Shown here piece after piece: positions 53,125 through 62,385 of a stretch of DNA of 64,000 nucleotides. The notes under the pieces were generated by a model. It saw only the letters and a program-made list of their open reading frames with translations, was not told the origin of the DNA and searched no databases. Within the stretch, counting starts at the first letter, position 1; every line of letters starts with the position of its first letter. The stretch spans positions 1,984,001 to 2,048,000 of the forward strand of contig NZ_CP054052.1 in the NCBI RefSeq assembly GCF_013283835.1. Reading direction: 5' to 3'. The stretch comes from Poseidonibacter lekithochrous (GTDB lineage: Bacteria; Campylobacterota; Campylobacteria; Campylobacterales; Arcobacteraceae). Made by a program: the position numbers and the translations under genes.

Positions 53125-53148
53125 AAGAGTTTAAGCTCTTTTATTTCT
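53117..53148. terminator. bidirectional terminator hairpin
   Basis: A 13-bp stem (53117-53129 with 53136-53148, one G-T wobble) between convergent methyltransferase and permease genes. It covers both gene ends. Confidence 0.7.
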
Positions 53149-54090
53149 CTTTATAAGTAAATATACAAAGAATGGCGCCCCAATAAAGGCAGTAACTACA
53201 CCAATTGGAATACTTGAAGCTGTATTTAAATTCCTAGCTATTAAATCAGAAACAACTAAAAATATTCCCCCATAGAAAAATACTGGAAAGATTAGCTTAT
53301 CTGCACTTTGTTTGTAAATAAGTTTTATAATATGAGGAACTACAAGCCCAACAAAACCAATAGGTCCCACAAAACTAATACTAATACCAACAACAAGTGA
53401 GATAACAACTAAAAGTAAAAGATTTAATTTATGTACATTTAGACCTTTTAAAAATGCTGTATCATTTGAGATTAGAAGAAGTTTTATTTTTGCTCTATTT
53501 TTATAAATAGTAAAATACATAATCATTGCAGTAACAAATACTGTAATTGAGCTAGTAAATCCAACAGTATCTAAACTACCAAGGGTAAATCTAACAATAG
53601 AGTAGTTTTGCTCCAAATTACTCATATAAAACACTAGAAGTAGCACAGAAGAGTAAAAGTACGATAATGCAATACCTATTAGAAGTATTGAGTTAGTTGA
53701 GACTGCAATAGAATCTTTATTTATTCTACGTGATATAAAATACAAAATAGTAATAGTAAATAATGAACCTAAAGCAGATGAAAAAGACAATAACATAGTA
53801 GGAAAAAATACTATTGAAATAGCTGTAAACATAGTAGTTCCACTAGCAATTCCCAAAGTATAGGGAGTTATCAAAGCATTTTTAAAAATGATTTGAAATA
53901 TTAAACCACTTAAAGCTAAAATCCCACCAACAAAAAAGGCCAATAAAACTCTAGAGATTCTCAAATCCCAGAATACTTTATAAGTAATACTTGAAGAATC
54001 AAATATTTCATTTAAGTTAAGTGCTATTTCTCCTAGAAATGGCGCGATTAGTAGAATAAATATACTTACAATAAATAGTGCTTTTTTCAT
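53131..54090 (-). CDS. btuC: FecCD-type ABC permease, probable cobalamin uptake (BtuC-like)
   Basis: 319 residues, ten helices, FecCD family: LRISRVLLAFFVGGILALSG, YTLGIASGTTMFTAIS and VGPIGFVGLVVPHIIKLIYK near residue 235. It forms the inner-membrane channel for an iron-siderophore or corrinoid. The gene order TonB receptor, binding protein, ATPase, permease and the BtuF-like binding protein favour vitamin B12. It overlaps the ATPase gene by 4 nt. Confidence 0.85.
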   Translation of the reverse strand: MKKALFIVSIFILLIAPFLGEIALNLNEIFDSSSITYKVFWDLRISRVLLAFFVGGILALSGLIFQIIFKNALITPYTLGIASGTTMFTAISIVFFPTMLLSFSSALGSLFTITILYFISRRINKDSIAVSTNSILLIGIALSYFYSSVLLLVFYMSNLEQNYSIVRFTLGSLDTVGFTSSITVFVTAMIMYFTIYKNRAKIKLLLISNDTAFLKGLNVHKLNLLLLVVISLVVGISISFVGPIGFVGLVVPHIIKLIYKQSADKLIFPVFFYGGIFLVVSDLIARNLNTASSIPIGVVTAFIGAPFFVYLLIKRNKRA

Positions 54091-54785
54091 AGATTTACCA
54101 CCAAGTGTTCATCTATTTTGGAAATAGTATTATTGTAAAACCTTTTTAGATTTTCATTTGAAAAGAACTCATCATGTTCTCCATAAAATTCTATCTCTCC
54201 ATCTTTTAAATACAATACTTTATATTTTAAAGCATAGGCTAAATCAAGATTATGAGTAATTACTATTTTTTGTTGAAGCATAGGTGATTGTAAAATATCA
54301 TAGACTTCTTTTAGTCTGCTAATATCTAAATTTGCAGTAAGTTCATCAAAAATAGTGATTTTTGCATCATGCATAATACTTGAAGCTAAAAGTAACAGTT
54401 GTTTTTCCCCTGAAGAAAAAGCTTTACAATATCTATTTTCTAGTTTCTCTAGTTTTAAAAGTTTGATTAATTTTGTAATCTTTTCATTGTCAACTGATGT
54501 AATAGAAGCTAGTTCCATAAACTCTCGTAAAGTAAGATATTCATCGAATATTTCTAGTTTTGGAGGTATGTAGTTTATTAAAGTAGCTCTTTTATTATCA
54601 GCAATTGAGTCAAGTTTTTCACCAAAAAGTTTAACATCTTGGTTTTCTATTAAGTTTGATAAAACCTTAGCTAGTGTGGACTTTCCAGCACCATTTTCAC
54701 CTAGGATTATTAAGTTGTCATTATCATTTAGTTGGAAAGTAATATTATTTAGAATATCACTTTTGTAGTTGTTTATCTCTAACAT
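54087..54785 (-). CDS. btuD: ABC transporter ATP-binding protein, probable cobalamin uptake (BtuD-like)
   Basis: 232 residues: Walker A LGENGAGKS (about 33-41), Q-loop near YIPPKLE, signature FSSGEKQLL (a variant of LSGGQ), Walker B ITIFDELTA and the switch His in VITHNLDLA. It drives the FecCD-type permease encoded after it. It overlaps the binding-protein gene by 29 nt and the permease by 4 nt. Confidence 0.86.
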   Translation of the reverse strand: MLEINNYKSDILNNITFQLNDNDNLIILGENGAGKSTLAKVLSNLIENQDVKLFGEKLDSIADNKRATLINYIPPKLEIFDEYLTLREFMELASITSVDNEKITKLIKLLKLEKLENRYCKAFSSGEKQLLLLASSIMHDAKITIFDELTANLDISRLKEVYDILQSPMLQQKIVITHNLDLAYALKYKVLYLKDGEIEFYGEHDEFFSNENLKRFYNNTISKIDEHLVVNL

Positions 54786-55596
54786 TATTTAGTATCTTTT
54801 TAAAATCTCTTATAAAATATATAACCCTATGACTAGGAATTCCTGAATATGTTTTGTCAATAATATAAATATCTTTATTTATACTTGCATTTACTGGAAG
54901 TGTTTGCCAAAGTGTTTTTAGTCTTTCTTGTTCTTCTATCTTACCATCTAAAAATGGCGATAAAAGCACTATTATATCAGGATTCATATTTATTATCTTC
55001 TCAGAGTTTACAACTGGTTGATTTGTACTTTCAGAGTAGTAGGCATTTTTGTTATTTGAAGCTTTTAAAACATCTTCAAAATATAGATTATTACCTGCAA
55101 TATAGATTTGATTATTTAGATTTTTTCGTGGACCTATTACTGTTAAGATTTTTTTATTCTTTACAATATTCGATAGTGAAGCTAAAGATTCATCAATTGT
55201 TTTTACAAGCTCGTTTGCTTTTTCATCTCTTTTAAAATATTTTCCAAGAGTAGTAATAGTTTTTTTAATAGATGAAATTGTATCTGTTTTAAAAATTAAT
55301 GTATTAATTCCTAAAGCTTTTAAATTACGAAGAAGTTTTTCATCATAATTTTGAGTAATTACAACAGTAGGTTTATAAGCTATAATTTTCTCTAGTGAGA
55401 TAGTAGCGTAACCACCTACTTTAGGAATAGATTTTGATTCTTCAGGATAATCACTATATTGAGTATTAGCCACAATATTCTTGCCCTCACCTAAAGCAAA
55501 TACTATTTCATTTATTGAAGGAGAGAGAGTTATTATTCTCTGCTCTCCAAATAAATTTATACATGATATTAAAAGTATAAATATTAGTTTATTCAT
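54757..55596 (-). CDS. btuF: periplasmic corrinoid/metal-chelate binding protein (BtuF-like)
   Basis: 279 residues. A signal peptide ends near FGE, followed by RIITLSPSINEIVFALGEGK, VANTQYSDYPEESKSIPKVG and GYATISLEKIIAYKPTVVIT, the BtuF pattern (YPE..K.IP.VG, then IE.I....PDLV). The class III binding-protein fold has a long connecting helix. It starts 1 nt after the receptor gene stop. B12 is the likely cargo, though related haem and siderophore binders share the motif. Confidence 0.85.
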   Translation of the reverse strand: MNKLIFILLISCINLFGEQRIITLSPSINEIVFALGEGKNIVANTQYSDYPEESKSIPKVGGYATISLEKIIAYKPTVVITQNYDEKLLRNLKALGINTLIFKTDTISSIKKTITTLGKYFKRDEKANELVKTIDESLASLSNIVKNKKILTVIGPRKNLNNQIYIAGNNLYFEDVLKASNNKNAYYSESTNQPVVNSEKIINMNPDIIVLLSPFLDGKIEEQERLKTLWQTLPVNASINKDIYIIDKTYSGIPSHRVIYFIRDFKKILNNVRDKQLQK

Positions 55597-55597
55597 A

Positions 55598-57400
55598 TTA
55601 GAATGTTGCCTTTAATCCTACGTATCCACTTCTTTCAGGTGTTGCATACCCATCAATGTTTTGGTAGTATTTATCAAATAAGTTATCAATTTTTAAATAT
55701 GTAGAAAACGTTTTATTAATTTCATAATTAACTACTGAATTCCAAACAGTATAGTTTCCAGTTTCTGCACCTGTCTTATTAGCACCATCATATCTAGTTC
55801 CAACATAAGATCCATTTACATTAAAATGAAATTTGTCAAATCCATAATAATCAACAGCAAAACCTAATTCTCTTTTTGCTCTTCTTGATAAATCTTGGTC
55901 TTTATTATCTTTAGCACTTAAATGTAGATAGTTTAAAGATAGTAATGTATTTTCTGTAATATCTTTATTATAAGAAAGTTCATAACCTTTAAGTTTTGTT
56001 TCCCCATCTAGGTTTTCATACTGAGTATTTGGCCATGAACCAGATACGTATTGAATCATATCAGTAATTCTACTTTCAAAATATGTTACTTTAAAATTTT
56101 TATATTCAACATTTAAATCTAAAGATTTTGTAGTTTCAGGTTTTAATGTAGGAGTATAATTTAAATTACTAAGAGTTGGCGCATTATATGCTGTTCCGTA
56201 GTTAGCACTTACATTTAAATCATCTGATACTAAATATTTAGCACCAATTTTACCAGTAATTTTTTCTTTAAACTTACTATTATCATCAAATCTTAATGTT
56301 TGAGCAAAAATTAAATTACCAAATCTATTTGAATTTGATAGGAAAACAGCTTTAGTATTAAATTTAAGTTCACTAGAAGAGTATTCAAAATTTTGTTTAT
56401 TTAAACCTACTAATAATTTTCCATTATCTGTATAATCAATATCACTTTGTAAAGCAAATTCATTTACTGAACTAATAGCATTAAAAGTACCTTGAGTTCT
56501 ATCAAATCTTGATTGTTGAGCATTAAGTTTAATTTGATAAATATCTGATTTATGAGTATAACTTGCAGATTTTAAATATTGCTTGAAAAAACCTTTTTTA
56601 GTTGTATCATCAGATGAACTATTATCATATTTATATTCAGAATCAATCTTTTTATATAAAAGCTCAATTAAATCATTATCACTAAGATTTAAACCTGCTT
56701 GAATATTATATGTATTATTTGAATATCCATCTTTATCATAACCTAATTCATCACCTCTTTTTCCATAGTCAGCTGAACCTTTTTTTGCTTCAAAGGCACT
56801 ATATCCTTCAGTGTCAACTCTATATGCACCAACTTTGATATAACCTTTTTCTGTTCTATTTGACACATTTGCTGATATTTTCTTTGTATGAAAACTACCA
56901 TATTCTACAGCCACATTACCATGAAGACCTTTCTTTGCCTTTGATGTAATAATATTTACAACACCACCACTAGCATCTGCACCCCAAATTCCAGATTGAG
57001 CTCCTTTTACTACTTCAATAGATTCGATATCATCTATTAAAAGTTGAGCAATATTTGCACCACTTAAACCTGCTGTTTCGTTATATCTAATACCATCAAT
57101 TAAAACTAATATTCGCTTTCCACTTACACCTCTAATTGTAAGATTATCTAATTGTCCTAATCCACCATTACTTGTAAGATTAACACCTGGAATTGTATTA
57201 AGAGCTTGACTAACACTATTAAAGTTTTTTTCTTGAATGTCTTCTTTTGTAATTACATCAATATTTGAAGTTACATCTTTAATTGATTGTTCTGATTTAG
57301 TTGCACTATATACAGTAATTTCTGATAAGTTTTCGTTTGAGTATAAGTTTGTTGCTAGTAGTAAGCCTGCAACTAGGCTTGAAGTTTGTATTTTATTCAT
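55598..57400 (-). CDS. btuB: TonB-dependent outer-membrane receptor (BtuB-like)
   Basis: 600 residues. The signal peptide (to about 21) is followed by a TonB box SEITVYSA, a plug domain with SQALNTIPGVNLTSNGGLGQ, LTIRGVSGKRILVLIDGIRY and WGADASGGVVNIITSKAK, then a beta-barrel ending YVGLKATF with a terminal Phe as outer-membrane targeting signal. Its length and plug are close to BtuB. It is coupled by an 8-nt overlap to a 67-residue upstream ORF. No cobalamin riboswitch was seen before it. Confidence 0.86.
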   Translation of the reverse strand: MNKIQTSSLVAGLLLATNLYSNENLSEITVYSATKSEQSIKDVTSNIDVITKEDIQEKNFNSVSQALNTIPGVNLTSNGGLGQLDNLTIRGVSGKRILVLIDGIRYNETAGLSGANIAQLLIDDIESIEVVKGAQSGIWGADASGGVVNIITSKAKKGLHGNVAVEYGSFHTKKISANVSNRTEKGYIKVGAYRVDTEGYSAFEAKKGSADYGKRGDELGYDKDGYSNNTYNIQAGLNLSDNDLIELLYKKIDSEYKYDNSSSDDTTKKGFFKQYLKSASYTHKSDIYQIKLNAQQSRFDRTQGTFNAISSVNEFALQSDIDYTDNGKLLVGLNKQNFEYSSSELKFNTKAVFLSNSNRFGNLIFAQTLRFDDNSKFKEKITGKIGAKYLVSDDLNVSANYGTAYNAPTLSNLNYTPTLKPETTKSLDLNVEYKNFKVTYFESRITDMIQYVSGSWPNTQYENLDGETKLKGYELSYNKDITENTLLSLNYLHLSAKDNKDQDLSRRAKRELGFAVDYYGFDKFHFNVNGSYVGTRYDGANKTGAETGNYTVWNSVVNYEINKTFSTYLKIDNLFDKYYQNIDGYATPERSGYVGLKATF

Positions 57401-57671: not shown

Positions 57672-58382
57672 TTAGATAGAAATATTTGTAAGAGGTCCAA
57701 CATTGCCTGTGTAAAATTGATACGCAAGAAAAATCATATATACACCAAATCCAAGTACTAAAACAGCAGCAGATTTAATAAATAAATCTCTTAAGTCAGA
57801 TTGTTTAAACATACCAACAAAGAAACCTAAAGAGAACATAGCAGGTAAAGTACTAAGTCCAAAAATAAGCATAACCATAGCACCATAAAAAGCACTAGCA
57901 GTACTAGCAGCAATTATTGCAAAAGCATATACGAAACCACATGGTAAAAGTCCATTTAAAGCTCCAAGAAAATAAAAACTTCCTAATGAATCTGAACCTA
58001 AAAGCTTTTTGAATGTTTTTTGATAAAGAGTAGATTTAGAACATGAGTGTTCTAACATAGATAAAAATTTAATTTTTCCTAATAGTGAAAAACCAACTAA
58101 TATCATCATAACACCAGTTAATAAAAGTAATAATGAATTTGTTAAAGAATTGAATGTAACAACACTTCCAAAGAACCCAATTATAGCTCCAATAATTACA
58201 TAAGTTGTAATTCTTCCCATTGAATAGAAAAGATGTGAAAAAGCTTGAGCTTTTTTTGACCAATTACTTCTAATTTTTGTGCTTGAGTATGCCATTACAA
58301 TACCCCCACACATACCGACACAGTGGCCAAAGGACCCAAGAACTGCGATTGTTATAATAGTTACGATACTAAGTGTTTCCAT
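57672..58382 (-). CDS. TauE/SafE-type membrane protein with CcdA-like HCxxMCGG motif
   Basis: 236 residues from ATG 58382 (GGAG 9 nt before it; TTG 58397 is less likely). Six membrane helices, with SFGHCVGMCGGIVMAYSS in the first and NGLLPCGFVYAFAIIAASTA after the midpoint, the paired Cys motifs of the COG2836/DsbD_2-like group often found beside cytochrome oxidase and copper-handling genes. It may pass electrons or copper across the inner membrane. Sulfite export is only a family label. Promoter at 58405-58410. Confidence 0.8.
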   Translation of the reverse strand: METLSIVTIITIAVLGSFGHCVGMCGGIVMAYSSTKIRSNWSKKAQAFSHLFYSMGRITTYVIIGAIIGFFGSVVTFNSLTNSLLLLLTGVMMILVGFSLLGKIKFLSMLEHSCSKSTLYQKTFKKLLGSDSLGSFYFLGALNGLLPCGFVYAFAIIAASTASAFYGAMVMLIFGLSTLPAMFSLGFFVGMFKQSDLRDLFIKSAAVLVLGFGVYMIFLAYQFYTGNVGPLTNISI

Positions 58383-58404
58383 AAATTCTAACTCCAAGGG
58401 GTGT

Positions 58405-58410
58405 ATTATA
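58405..58410 (-). promoter_or_regulatory. -10 box of the TauE/SafE-like gene
   Basis: TATAAT on the reverse strand about 22 nt before ATG 58382, downstream of the small-RNA terminator, so the gene has its own promoter. Confidence 0.5.
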
Positions 58411-58452: not shown

Positions 58453-58482
58453 AAAAAAAAAGCTTCGCTATTTGCGAAGCTT
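58453..58482 (-). terminator. rho-independent terminator of the putative small RNA
   Basis: AGCTTCGC/GCGAAGCT stem of 8-9 bp with a 5-nt loop (58460-58482), followed on the reverse strand by nine T (58461-58453). It is the most G+C-rich stem in the gap and points only in the reverse direction. Confidence 0.88.
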
Positions 58483-58571
58483 ATGTTAATTATTTATATT
58501 AATTTCGAAATTCAATAGGATACTAATTAAAATTATTAGTAGTAGGAGGATTTAATATAAATACCCTATAT
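58453..58571 (-). ncRNA. putative small RNA of about 120 nt
   Basis: Reverse strand. An extended -10 TGATATAAT (58586-58578) would start a transcript near 58571, and a strong terminator ends it at 58453, with no coding frame between. Parts seen: an unpaired 5' stretch carrying TCCTCCTACT (58550-58541), complementary to Shine-Dalgarno sequences; a 7-bp hairpin (58521-58541); a short palindrome AATTTCGAAATT (58501-58512); and the terminator. Such an exposed C-rich loop is typical of regulatory RNAs in this phylum. It has not been matched to a known family. Confidence 0.6.
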
Positions 58572-58577
58572 GAAGAA

Positions 58578-58586
58578 ATTATATCA
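58578..58586 (-). promoter_or_regulatory. extended -10 promoter of the putative small RNA
   Basis: TGATATAAT, a full TGnTATAAT extended -10 on the reverse strand. Confidence 0.55.
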
Positions 58587-58710
58587 GGCGAAATGTTAAT
58601 TAATTGTTAAATCAAGATAAAAATTGTCCTATTTAGATAAATTCCATAAAAGTTGTAGAAAAGTAACACTTTTGTACATATATAAAATCTAGTCTTTATA
58701 TATATCCCAT

Positions 58711-58716
58711 TATAAT
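58711..58716 (+). promoter_or_regulatory. -10 box of the HAD phosphatase gene
   Basis: TATAAT 33 nt before ATG 58750, with AGGA in between. It lies back to back with the small-RNA promoter, about 125 bp away. Confidence 0.5.
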
Positions 58717-58749
58717 ACAAAAAATTAAAAGATTTTAGGATTAAAGACA

Positions 58750-59373
58750 ATGCATTTAATAATGTTTGACATGGATGGAACTTTAGTAGATAGTTCAAAA
58801 GCAATAACAAATACAATCAATTATGTAAGAGAAAATTTAGGCTTCAAAAGACTTGAAAAAAGTTATATTTTAGAAAAAGTAAATGACCCTAGTATTAATT
58901 CAGCAGAATTCTTCTATGGAACACAAGAATTTACAGATGAACAAACACATTTATTTGAAGAGTACTATAATAAGAATTGTTTATATGACTTAGAAGTTTA
59001 TGATGGAATTACAAAATTAATAGAAGATTTAAAAGATGATTTTACTTTAGCAGTAGCTACAAATGCAAATTCTGATTTTGCTAGAAAAATGTTAGATCAC
59101 GTAGGAATTGAAAAACACTTCTCTACAATCTTAGGTTACGATAGCGTAGTAAATCCAAAACCACATCCAGAAATGGTACAAAAAATTCTGAATAAACATG
59201 ATATCCAAAAAGAAAACGCTCAATTAATTGGTGATTCTCACAAAGATATTATGGCAGCATCAAGTGCGGGTGTTGATTCAGTATTAGTAAACTGGGGATT
59301 TTCAGATCATGAAGAAAATGCTATTGAAACTATTGAAGAGTTAGAAAGGAAAATATTTGAGAAGTTTAAATAA
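58750..59373 (+). CDS. HAD family phosphatase, Gph/PGP type
   Basis: 207 residues with all four HAD motifs: MFDMDGTLVDSS at the start (nucleophile Asp), VATNANSDFARKML (motif II), NPKPHPEMVQKIL (Lys, motif III) and LIGDSHKDIMAASSAG (motif IV). A helical cap follows motif I (about 15-80). Phosphoglycolate or another small phosphate ester is the likely substrate. A hairpin (59361-59378) lies in its last codons, and a T-run follows on the + strand after 59400. Confidence 0.9.
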   Translation: MHLIMFDMDGTLVDSSKAITNTINYVRENLGFKRLEKSYILEKVNDPSINSAEFFYGTQEFTDEQTHLFEEYYNKNCLYDLEVYDGITKLIEDLKDDFTLAVATNANSDFARKMLDHVGIEKHFSTILGYDSVVNPKPHPEMVQKILNKHDIQKENAQLIGDSHKDIMAASSAGVDSVLVNWGFSDHEENAIETIEELERKIFEKFK

Positions 59374-59396: not shown

Positions 59397-59843
59397 TTAC
59401 TTTTTTTTGATTTGTGCAGAATTTCTGTAAGTCTTAATAACTTCAACTTTTTCACCATCTACAAATTCACTATCATCGATATCACTATCTATTTCCCAAT
59501 AAGTTCCTTTGAAAAAAACCTTTGAGTTTTTTATTTGCCCTATTCCACCCTCATGTAAAAAATTATCAGTAATTTCTTCTTCAGATGACAAAAACTTTTC
59601 TAAAGCTTTTTTTCTTAATAAAACAATAAAAATCAGCGATATTATAGATGCTACTGCTAATTGCCATACTCCATCACTAAAAGGAAATACCATACTAATT
59701 AAAGCAGTGATTACAAAACCTAATCCAAACCAGATTAAAATAAAAGATGATATTACAGCTTCAAGACCTATTAAAACTACTCCAATACCTAAAAGTATAT
59801 ATGGATTAATTATCTCAAGTAGCATTGTTGTTTGCACTTCCAT
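59397..59843 (-). CDS. NfeD-like membrane protein
   Basis: 148 residues from ATG 59843, chosen for AAAGGAG 6 nt upstream. Three or four membrane helices occupy the first 80 residues (PYILLGIGVVLIGLEAVISS). A C-terminal OB-fold-like domain follows (GGIGQIKNSKVFFKGTYWEI, VDGEKVEVIKTY). NfeD proteins pair with band-7 proteins, and this gene overlaps the band-7 gene by 29 nt on the same strand, the standard arrangement. Together they likely form a membrane microdomain or protease-regulating scaffold. Confidence 0.86.
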   Translation of the reverse strand: MEVQTTMLLEIINPYILLGIGVVLIGLEAVISSFILIWFGLGFVITALISMVFPFSDGVWQLAVASIISLIFIVLLRKKALEKFLSSEEEITDNFLHEGGIGQIKNSKVFFKGTYWEIDSDIDDSEFVDGEKVEVIKTYRNSAQIKKK

Positions 59844-60801: not shown

Positions 60802-61656
60802 TTAGTGAATAATTATGTTTTTTAAGTCCAAATTAAATTGATTTCCATTATCAAAAGTATCAATCTTAATAGAAATCTTATTTTTATCACAAAATTCTTT
60901 TACCATTGATAATCCAAGACCAAAACCATCTTTACTTGAGTCTTCTTGGAAATACTTATCAAAAATTATAAATAAGTTTTTTGTGTCGATTTTCTCACCA
61001 TTATTATAAATAGATAAGACATTGTTTTCAAAAAATATATTTACTTTTGGATTTGATTTAGAATTATATTTTAAGGCATTTGATATTAGATTATCCAAAG
61101 TCTTTTCAAAACCATTTAAATCAGTTAGAAGCTTTATATTTGGGATAAGAGATTCTATTTCAATATCTTTTTTTATGTCTTCAAACTTCTCAATAGAAGA
61201 GTTAATCATATCATCTAAATAAAACTCTTGATCATCAATTTTATCAATCTCTTTTTTAATATTATATTCCATATTTTCATATAATTTCAAAAGATTATTA
61301 CTTGCATCTTTTATTCTTTTTAATCTTTTTACACTCTTTTCATCTGTAACATTTTTTTCCAAAAGTTGTGTGTTCATTTTGATAGTTGAAACAGGAATAT
61401 TTAGTTCATGGATAGTTTCTTTTACACTTTTTTCTAAGTTATCATCACTTCTAAAAAGAGGTTTTAAAATAGTATTTGTAAAGCTAAGAAAAAGAGCTAG
61501 ACCTAAAATTAATAAAGGAACAATTAGAAAAATAAAGTTTTCTTGATTTAATCCAAATAGTGCCATTAAAACATGATTTACATATAAAATAATAATTAGA
61601 GTGATAGTGAATATAATAGAAATTGAAATTAAAAAATCTCTTTTTTTAGAATTCAA
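60802..61656 (-). CDS. two-component sensor histidine kinase
   Basis: 284 residues from TTG 61656 with AGGA 7 nt upstream. Two membrane helices (about 10-30 and 38-58) with almost no periplasmic loop, so it may sense in or at the membrane. The phosphoacceptor is His in ETIHELNIPVSTIKM. N box LISNALKYNSK, G boxes IFDKYFQEDSSKDGFGLGLS. There is no HAMP. It overlaps the response regulator gene by 11 nt. Confidence 0.88.
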   Translation of the reverse strand: MNSKKRDFLISISIIFTITLIIILYVNHVLMALFGLNQENFIFLIVPLLILGLALFLSFTNTILKPLFRSDDNLEKSVKETIHELNIPVSTIKMNTQLLEKNVTDEKSVKRLKRIKDASNNLLKLYENMEYNIKKEIDKIDDQEFYLDDMINSSIEKFEDIKKDIEIESLIPNIKLLTDLNGFEKTLDNLISNALKYNSKSNPKVNIFFENNVLSIYNNGEKIDTKNLFIIFDKYFQEDSSKDGFGLGLSMVKEFCDKNKISIKIDTFDNGNQFNLDLKNIIIH

Positions 61657-62305
61657 TTTTGTATCCTATTCCTTTAATATTTGATAAGGAATCTTTTCCT
61701 AGTAGTTTTTTTATTGAATTAATATATACTCGGATTGAACCTTCACTATACTCTTCATCACAAGCCCAAAGCTTAGAGATAATCATATCTTTAGTTACGA
61801 TTTCACCTCTATTTTCAATAAATAGCTCTAATAATTCTGATACTTTTACAGGAAGGTTTATATCTTCATTATTTTCAAAAACTCTTTTTGAAATAGGATT
61901 AAATACTAAATTATTGTTTAGTTCAATATTTTCAAATTGTTTATTATTTCGTTTTAATAAAGCTCTAATTCGTAATATTAACTCATCTAAATCTACAGGT
62001 TTTTTAAGATAATCATCACAACCATTGTTAAAACCTTTTTGCAAAGTTTCTTTATCTTTGTATGATGTTAAAAAAATTGAAGGGGTTTGATCACCTGAAC
62101 TTCTAAGTTGTTCAAGAAGGTCAAGACCATTTATTTTTGGTACATTAATATCAAAAATATATAAGTCATATTTATTTTCATAGTTTAAATCTAAGCAAGC
62201 TTCACCGTCATAAGCAATATCTACACAAAAACCCTCATCTTCCAAAAAGTCCTCTAATGTACTTGCAAATAGTTCATCATCTTCTAAAACCAATATCTTA
62301 TGCAA
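61646..62305 (-). CDS. OmpR family response regulator
   Basis: 219 residues. Receiver with acidic pair LEDDELF, phospho-Asp in YDLYIFDINVPKINGLDLL, Thr/Ser in IFLTSYKD and Lys in YLKKPVD. The C-terminal winged helix (about 125-219, NGKRVFENNEDI-like start, then GSIRVYINSIKKLLGKDSLS) binds DNA. It is co-transcribed with the kinase that follows. Regulon unknown. Confidence 0.92.
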   Translation of the reverse strand: MHKILVLEDDELFASTLEDFLEDEGFCVDIAYDGEACLDLNYENKYDLYIFDINVPKINGLDLLEQLRSSGDQTPSIFLTSYKDKETLQKGFNNGCDDYLKKPVDLDELILRIRALLKRNNKQFENIELNNNLVFNPISKRVFENNEDINLPVKVSELLELFIENRGEIVTKDMIISKLWACDEEYSEGSIRVYINSIKKLLGKDSLSNIKGIGYKIEF

Positions 62306-62385
62306 TAAATATCCTTGATTAAATTCATATTTTATTATTATAGTTATAAATAGTTAAAAATGTGTTAATTAAAATAAAAAGTAAG

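Follow-up and report, generated by a model that had tools for sequence, protein, structure and literature searches.

A stretch on the minus strand of the Poseidonibacter lekithochrous genome, located between a SafE-like gene and a divergent HAD-family gene (58750-59373), raises the question of whether it encodes an RNA and, if so, on which mRNA and in response to which signal such an RNA would act. An earlier note on the window (the whole stretch of 64,000 nucleotides that was analysed) had read it as an orphan unit encoding a small regulatory RNA (sRNA) with an exposed anti-Shine-Dalgarno loop. Genomes, loci and genera are designated below by G, L and g numbers, g1 being the genus of P. lekithochrous.

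The RNA gene between the HAD and SafE-like genes

The promoter, the approximately 120 nt devoid of a reading frame, the hairpin and the nine-U terminator that had been described on the reverse strand were all found (Table 1). The 5' end of the RNA was placed 7 nt downstream of the -10 element. The 134-nt stretch folds with -29 kcal/mol (z -5.16), and none of 200 shuffled sequences was equally stable. The minimum-energy fold of the sRNA consists of a 5' stem-loop with UCCUCCUACUACUAAUAA in its loop, an A+U-rich linker and the terminator. Thus, the C-rich seed reported by the earlier note exists, but it sits in the loop of the 5' stem-loop and not in an unpaired 5' part. At least eight of its 11 bases are unpaired in the minimum-energy fold of each of five copies. 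The centroid fold of the P. lekithochrous sRNA deviates from its minimum-energy fold in that the final seed bases are paired. The terminator scan gave 4 terminator-like sites in 5 kb, compared to a mean of 1.1 in shuffles. As the note had stated, there is no coding gene just upstream on the minus strand to which the terminator could belong, the next sizeable minus-strand ORF ending at 59397. In the P. lekithochrous sequence no convincing open frame was found inside the sRNA stretch, and internal ORFs of at least 10 codons are absent in 39 of the 48 copies described below. A mechanically called 69-codon ORF with a TTG start (58607-58816) is antisense to the start of the HAD gene.

Table 1. Positions of the sRNA gene, its promoter elements and neighbouring features in the window.
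Feature	Position	Strand	Basis or remark
Small RNA	58453-58571	-	about 119 nt; covariance model R1 and 48 aligned copies; fold z -3.4 for 58453-58571
Extended -10 TGATATAAT	58578-58586	-	sequence
5' stem-loop	58515-58569	-	outer stem 58569-58560 with 58524-58515; inner stem 58556-58551 with 58531-58526
Seed UCCUCCUACUA	58540-58550	-	complement of the ccoN Shine-Dalgarno sequence
Intrinsic terminator	58453-58482	-	9-bp stem (58482-58460, 5 G-C pairs), then nine T
TTAACA-N5-TTAACA direct repeat	58594-58610	-	in place of the -35; 10 nt before the -10
13-bp imperfect palindrome GATAAAAATTGTC	58616-58628		upstream element; similar in g1, g3 and g10 copies, by eye
SafE-like DsbD_2 membrane protein	57672-58397	-	downstream of the sRNA; Pfam PF13386, E 6.1e-51; synteny
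TATAAT, possible separate promoter of SafE	58405-58410	-	between terminator and SafE
OmpR-type response regulator, candidate sRNA activator	61646-62305	-	3 kb from the sRNA
Sensor histidine kinase, paired with the regulator	60802-61656	-	HisKA/HATPase_c
Response-regulator promoter	62337-62368	-	TTAACACATTTTTAACT at 62368-62352 (one mismatch), 9 nt, TATAAT at 62342-62337

We applied a covariance model, built from 13 copies, to 104 genomes of the family Arcobacteraceae. The model had a match at E <= 1 in 56 of them, and the 48 sequences at E <= 1e-4 were aligned. By hand tally these come from all 10 genomes of g1, the single genome of g3, 29 of 31 genomes of g10, the single genome of g18 and 7 of 16 genomes of g19. 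The earlier note would have given up its reading if the element were unique to one strain; instead, there are 48 copies in 48 genomes. Moreover, TATTNAATCCTCCTACTACTAA was found in eight contigs among named records, all of them Arcobacter or Aliarcobacter, and BLAST against 100 relatives recovered copies at the same place, 14 of 37 loci having SafE and 12 of those also HAD nearby. The weak model matches that were read are terminators or other stretches in which the loop is missing, and the second match in the P. lekithochrous genome (611114-611199), considered as a paralogue, is a terminator without the loop. An order-wide search of 248 genomes gave a match in 10, all inside the family, using a model that also missed diverged units within it. 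Searching 31 genomes (other genera and g19) for the exact TCCTCCTACTA gave 63 places, and the 30 loci that were read contained, besides ccoN, no sRNA-type unit. The unit of G129, found by synteny, also contains TCCTCCTACTA.

The alignment bears out the conservation and covariation that the note had suggested looking for. Standard pairs fill 97.2% of the base-pair cells and 14 of the 19 pairs show changes on both sides, figures from an alignment that was fitted to the model and is therefore biased towards the structure. Four of five covariation measures were reached by none of 500 shuffles and the fifth, further pair types, by six; when the structure was slid along the alignment as a control, 36.5-52.1% of cells were paired. 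The terminator helix has both-side changes in 9 of 10 modelled pairs (97.5% of cells paired) and the 5' stem-loop in 5 of 9 (96.8%), where each doubly changed pair is backed by two to four sequences. These are largely g19 copies, whose stem is made of different bases but encloses an unchanged CCUCCUACUAC loop. All 48 copies keep the loop, both helices and the terminator, and the seed is the most conserved part.

Units of the same layout with other loops occur in further genomes: UUCUCCUACUA in G139 and G140, GUCUCUCCUAAAA in G016, CCCCUCCUGUU in G017, UUCUCCUACA in G022, UUCUCCAAAC in G024 and CUCCUAACUAAU in G036. Those of G020 and G046 retain the promoter box and the terminator and lack CUCC. 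These diverged units, assessed by eye, carry less certainty than the 48 aligned copies.

The position of the unit suggests another reading, in which the RNA is a cis-acting leader: the promoter would belong to the operon of SafE and a NosL-like gene, the hairpin-terminator would be an attenuator, and read-through would yield the downstream mRNA. By synteny the NosL-like gene, which was named by eye and has no Pfam family match in two copies, precedes SafE in many relatives, and the unit stands directly before this pair in many genera. In addition, in G030, G019 and G027 SafE or the NosL-like gene follows the box immediately, with no RNA in between (the box being relaxed in the latter two). However, an attenuator or riboswitch would always be found upstream of the same gene, and units recognised by eye are not. 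In g14 (G022, L418) no ORF was found behind the unit and SafE has no box within 1.5 kb, and in g12 the unit is 3.6-3.7 kb away from SafE, before another gene. A TA[TA]AAT box that could serve SafE separately follows within 110 nt of the terminator in 41 of 48 copies (mean of 200 shuffles 26.1, maximum 34). The conservation peaks in the seed, the terminator pairs solely with itself in the minimum-energy folds, and the Rfam search of the window returned no family at the gathering threshold, and the best score noted was Phe_leader with 26.4 bits against 55. We therefore consider a leader function unlikely as the main explanation. It is partly compatible with an sRNA, as the RNA may have begun as a leader of the NosL-like/SafE operon, and a leader-derived sRNA may do both jobs. 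SafE itself is present in 29 of 30 further genomes, and a relaxed box with a -10 was found within 1.5 kb upstream of it at 14 of 30 further loci and not at the other 16. On its other side the SafE gene adjoins a BtuB/BtuF-like vitamin B12 uptake cluster (53131-57400); no cobalamin riboswitch was detected in the window at the Rfam threshold.

Given 48 copies, two covarying helices, a nearly invariant loop core and little coding potential, the sequence argues for the small regulatory RNA with an exposed anti-Shine-Dalgarno loop that had been postulated, and a gene for it is almost certainly present at this site.

Predicted pairing of the loop with the ccoN leader

The ccoN gene encodes a heme-copper subunit, namely subunit I of the copper-containing cbb3 oxidase, and P. 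lekithochrous has a second copy of it. We searched 18 genomes for AGTAGGAGGA, the exact complement, and obtained matches in 17 of them, at 108 places of which 90 were read. Apart from sRNA genes and 16S rRNA copies, the match that recurs at a start site is ccoN, with TTAGTAGGAGGAGATTG-ATG, in 10 genomes. In total 70 ccoN leaders were read. Within the P. lekithochrous genome AGTAGGAGGA is found four times: in the sRNA's own complement, in the Shine-Dalgarno sequence of ccoN, at one place without a start behind it and before an ORF of just 62 codons. When two mismatches were allowed, the target pattern was found 139 times, compared to 94 for the control.

The seed pairs with the Shine-Dalgarno sequence of the P. 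lekithochrous ccoN over 11 bp, in a duplex of -20.5 kcal/mol. We scanned 388 genes in 464 kb of the same genome, using heuristic start sites and ignoring mRNA structure, and ccoN came first; the best other gene had -18.4, and the mean was -6.6 (sd 2.9). By run length alone, two of the 388 leaders also have 11 contiguous bases, complementary to the A+U-rich region of the loop. The second ccoN copy scores -10.0 in P. lekithochrous and six such copies in relatives score -4.3 to -9.6 (with the P. lekithochrous loop). The duplex with nosZ, a further copper enzyme assigned by eye, is weak (-11.3). The second ccoN of P. lekithochrous (G000:C1:2692920-2693148, L463) has a weak, different leader.

The contiguous pairing of each sRNA with the ccoN of its own genome was compared in 57 genomes that had been chosen by CUCC-like patterns in the unit. 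It extends over 8 bp in 4 genomes, 9 bp in 11, 10 bp in 7, 11 bp in 20, 12 bp in 10, 13 bp in 2, 14 bp in 1 and 15 bp in 2. Conserved pairing with an mRNA encoded elsewhere, as expected of a trans-acting sRNA, is therefore seen in 42 of the 57 genomes when at least 10 bp are asked for. Outside the AGGAGG, leader and sRNA show matching changes: UACAA goes with UUGUA in G060, G018 and G106, the pairing reaches 15 bp in G054, and CUCCUAAA goes with UUUAGGAG in G016. C-to-U changes in the seed are held by wobble pairs in G001, G026, G102, G110, G139 and G140. The pairing is shorter, at only 9 bp, in eight g10 genomes (G034, G044, G100, G104, G109, G121, G123, G125) and covers 8 bp in G122. The longest run of G024 and of G036 falls outside the Shine-Dalgarno core, and that of G020 includes five wobbles. 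Four units outside the 57 pair weakly or off the seed, over 10 bp with two to three wobbles in G040 and G130 and over 6 bp in G039 and G049 (duplexes of -12.7 to -16.1). Even where the unit pairs poorly, in g12 and other genomes (G020, G024), the leader AUUAGUAGGAGGA has been conserved, so that it may be kept for another reason. This weakens a claim of co-evolution across the whole family. The tree of the neighbouring HAD protein leaves the origins of the ACAA loop at one or two.

The RNA might instead damp translation in general, as a broad anti-Shine-Dalgarno sRNA whose targets would be many AGGAGG leaders, or cytochromes in general, rather than mainly ccoN. Such breadth would fit the CUCC core, which is the most stable part across genera, and the exact matches that some g10 genomes have at nrfA-like, cytochrome c-like and ferredoxin-like starts (by eye; L165, L167, L168, L206, L219), genes that are possible further targets on the basis of sequence. 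However, AGGAGG lies within 25 nt of a candidate start in only 4 of the 388 sampled P. lekithochrous genes, none of the 388 pairs as stably as ccoN, and in part of the genomes the bases flanking the core change together with ccoN. We regard a general damper as doubtful. The reading of the loop as anti-Shine-Dalgarno is supported, and beyond generic Shine-Dalgarno mimicry the loop fits the ccoN leader better than the others sampled. In several g10 genomes an apparent 16S rRNA (L182, L183, L185 and similar loci) also holds an exact AGTAGGAGGA, making the seed complementary to rRNA too. Taken together, ccoN is probably a direct target of the sRNA, as judged from the predicted duplexes.

The -10 of ccoN (TATATAA) is so close that the mRNA probably starts at the paired stretch. 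Its promoter in P. lekithochrous (L255, 1380-1575) has GTGAC direct repeats with an 11-bp period just before the -10 and, further up, TTAAC repeats in the opposite orientation; near ccoN of G100 and G011 such repeats match the full box. No bd oxidase or cydA was found in the P. lekithochrous genome, so full repression of the cbb3 oxidase would come at a high cost if the second cbb3 did not take its place.

The promoter box, copper genes and a candidate regulator

The sigma-70 scan did not list the sRNA promoter, in which a direct repeat, a likely response-regulator site by its sequence, occupies the -35 position. Close to the start, 41 of 48 copies have a stricter -10 pattern, compared to 19.7 after shuffling. 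Within 60 nt upstream, the exact TTAACA-N5-TTAACA is present in every copy of g1 (10), g3 (1) and g19 (7) and in two of g10, which makes 20 of the 48. It is absent in 28, namely 27 of 29 g10 copies and the g18 copy, where control must differ or be degenerate.

Searching 18 genomes from 13 genera for the repeat with a TANNNT -10 at 8-11 nt gave 53 matches, compared to 8 for the reversed control. Four of the 53 are duplicates due to the flexible gap, which leaves 49 distinct sites, and all of these except one in G016 were read. The bare repeat with up to one mismatch is not enriched in the P. lekithochrous genome (87 compared to 100 for the control); the strict box with a -10 has a single match there, the sRNA promoter. 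sRNA-type units, the diverged ones recognised by eye, stand at 11 of the 49 sites, including those in G011 and G057. The copper genes TonB-copper receptor, PCuAC, NosL and SafE follow 15 of the 38 other sites. In detail, TonB-copper receptors are found in G124, G024, G036, G058 and G022 (TIGR01778 was the sole family listed, below the cut-off) and, by eye, in G010; PCuAC (PF04314) at five sites, in G057, G017, G016, G022 and G058; NosL (PF05573) at three, in G017, G024 and G010; and SafE directly after the box at one of the 49 (G030). In P. lekithochrous four tandem repeats, one of them imperfect, precede GATAAT at a copper receptor gene. Thus, the unit is not the orphan it had been taken for, since its promoter box is common to copper-acquisition genes, and the sRNA promoter is very probably a copper-regulon promoter. 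Copper control of the sRNA would follow from these common promoters, and as the genes that use the same promoter serve uptake and delivery, the signal would be a shortage of copper rather than an excess.

A different signal, for example oxygen, redox or iron, is improbable in our view, even though siderophore-type TonB receptors and porins are among the boxed genes, ccoN has GTGAC repeats of its own in its promoter and the box is missing in most g10 copies. The boxed families that recur, TonB-copper, PCuAC and NosL, have copper in common. The remaining boxed genes encode ExbB and an EF-hand protein and, by eye, TonB, SecG, MetH, flagellin and unknowns. A phosphate site similar to that of PhoP in Bacillus was dropped as an identity of the box because copper families recur downstream.

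Some further elements were observed. The palindrome upstream of the sRNA promoter is of the type GATAAA-N-TTTATC and is found in many copies; it bears a slight resemblance to a Fur-type box and might act for the divergent HAD gene as well. L424 (G026:C1:1495900-1496900) is another box-driven stretch, in which a long hairpin (GUUCUCUAU ... AUAGAGAAC) precedes a TonB receptor-like gene and may be a second sRNA or a leader. In L108, about 130 nt separate an exact TTAACA-N5-TTAACA (G000:C1:2825158) from a nosZ-like gene (by eye) that follows it, and there is no -10 at the usual spacing. One box site, in G057, is followed by a PepSY_TM protein. In Bordetella the PepSY_TM protein CrpH is upregulated by copper starvation and supports heme-copper oxidases (PMC13038864, in excerpt), and a TonB-dependent copper importer is dedicated to heme-copper oxidases (PMC12914433, in excerpt).

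A candidate for the regulator lies close to the sRNA (Table 1). Over 105 aa, the first 110 residues of a boxed OmpR-type regulator in G010 share 63% identity with the response regulator in the window, and the two are likely orthologous. We infer that this regulator, together with its histidine kinase, controls the box.

A proposed copper-sparing circuit

With moderate confidence, we propose as the whole loop a trans-acting sRNA that belongs to a copper-limitation regulon and masks the ribosome site of ccoN, which would make it a copper-sparing counterpart of RyhB. An OmpR-type regulator, most likely the one 3 kb away, would become active when the periplasm or oxidase assembly has too little copper, bind the TTAACA repeats that replace the -35 and turn on copper TonB receptors, PCuAC, NosL, the NosL-like/SafE operon and the sRNA. 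The 5' hairpin would keep UCCUCCUACUA largely single-stranded, allowing it to pair with UAGUAGGAGGA, which would lie at the 5' end of the short ccoN leader or close to it. This would cover the Shine-Dalgarno sequence and block translation of the main cbb3 oxidase, so that copper would be spared as uptake rises; the second ccoN, where present, has no such site and would escape. We lean slightly towards the more specific version, in which a two-component system of this family, responding to copper limitation, produces an sRNA that shuts off the main cbb3 oxidase at the ribosome site, spares the second copy where there is one and has changed together with the ccoN leader in some lineages.

Several known RNAs resemble parts of this scheme. 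In RepG of Helicobacter and other C/U-rich-loop sRNAs of Campylobacterota, a pyrimidine-rich loop pairs with G-rich leaders. The likeness to C-rich loops of Helicobacter and Campylobacter claimed by the earlier note is of this general kind, a pyrimidine-rich single-stranded loop; unlike in RepG, the seed is in the 5' hairpin loop and not in the terminator loop. The alphaproteobacterial NfeR1 and suhB RNAs expose CCUCC loops against Shine-Dalgarno sequences. The sRNA described here shares the exposed anti-Shine-Dalgarno loop, but has a single such loop at its 5' end, another promoter and no Rfam match at threshold. In plants, copper shortage turns on miR398 and its relatives, which lower copper proteins; the scheme is alike, whereas the present RNA is bacterial and is proposed to act at the ribosome site. 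RyhB and PrrF are iron-sparing sRNAs. NrrF, another one, acts on cytochrome bc1 (PMC5586341, in excerpt). As in these cases, the proposed metal-regulon sRNA would reduce a metal-rich respiratory enzyme at the same time as uptake genes are raised, and as for RyhB its promoter is common to metal-uptake genes (the exact box in the 20 copies given above). Unlike them, it stands with copper genes, has a direct-repeat box instead of a Fur box and belongs to no Rfam family at threshold. The nickel-responsive s-SodF of Streptomyces also pairs with a metalloenzyme mRNA in response to a metal other than iron, but derives from a 3' UTR (PMC9294342, in excerpt), whereas the sRNA here has its own promoter and terminator. 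Finally, a copper-responsive upstream ORF in Bordetella (PMC9426467, in excerpt) is likewise post-transcriptional and tied to copper acquisition; it is a cis-acting small ORF, in contrast to the separate RNA found here.

A review from 2022 covers sRNAs for iron, manganese and nickel and, in excerpt, considers it very likely that further sparing sRNAs exist, copper being among the metals named (PMC9294342). Metal sparing by sRNA is known for iron, and among the matches listed in our literature searches we found described no bacterial case for copper, no sRNA acting on ccoN or cbb3 and no report of the RNA at 58453-58571, neither in general nor for Aliarcobacter butzleri; these searches do not prove absence. 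The words ccoN and Arcobacter do not occur in the main text of the C. jejuni dRNA-seq paper (PMC3656092), as excerpted. If the proposal is true, it would suggest a function for the NosL-like/SafE operon and would place copper import and oxidase assembly in one small circuit with a sensor pair and an sRNA.
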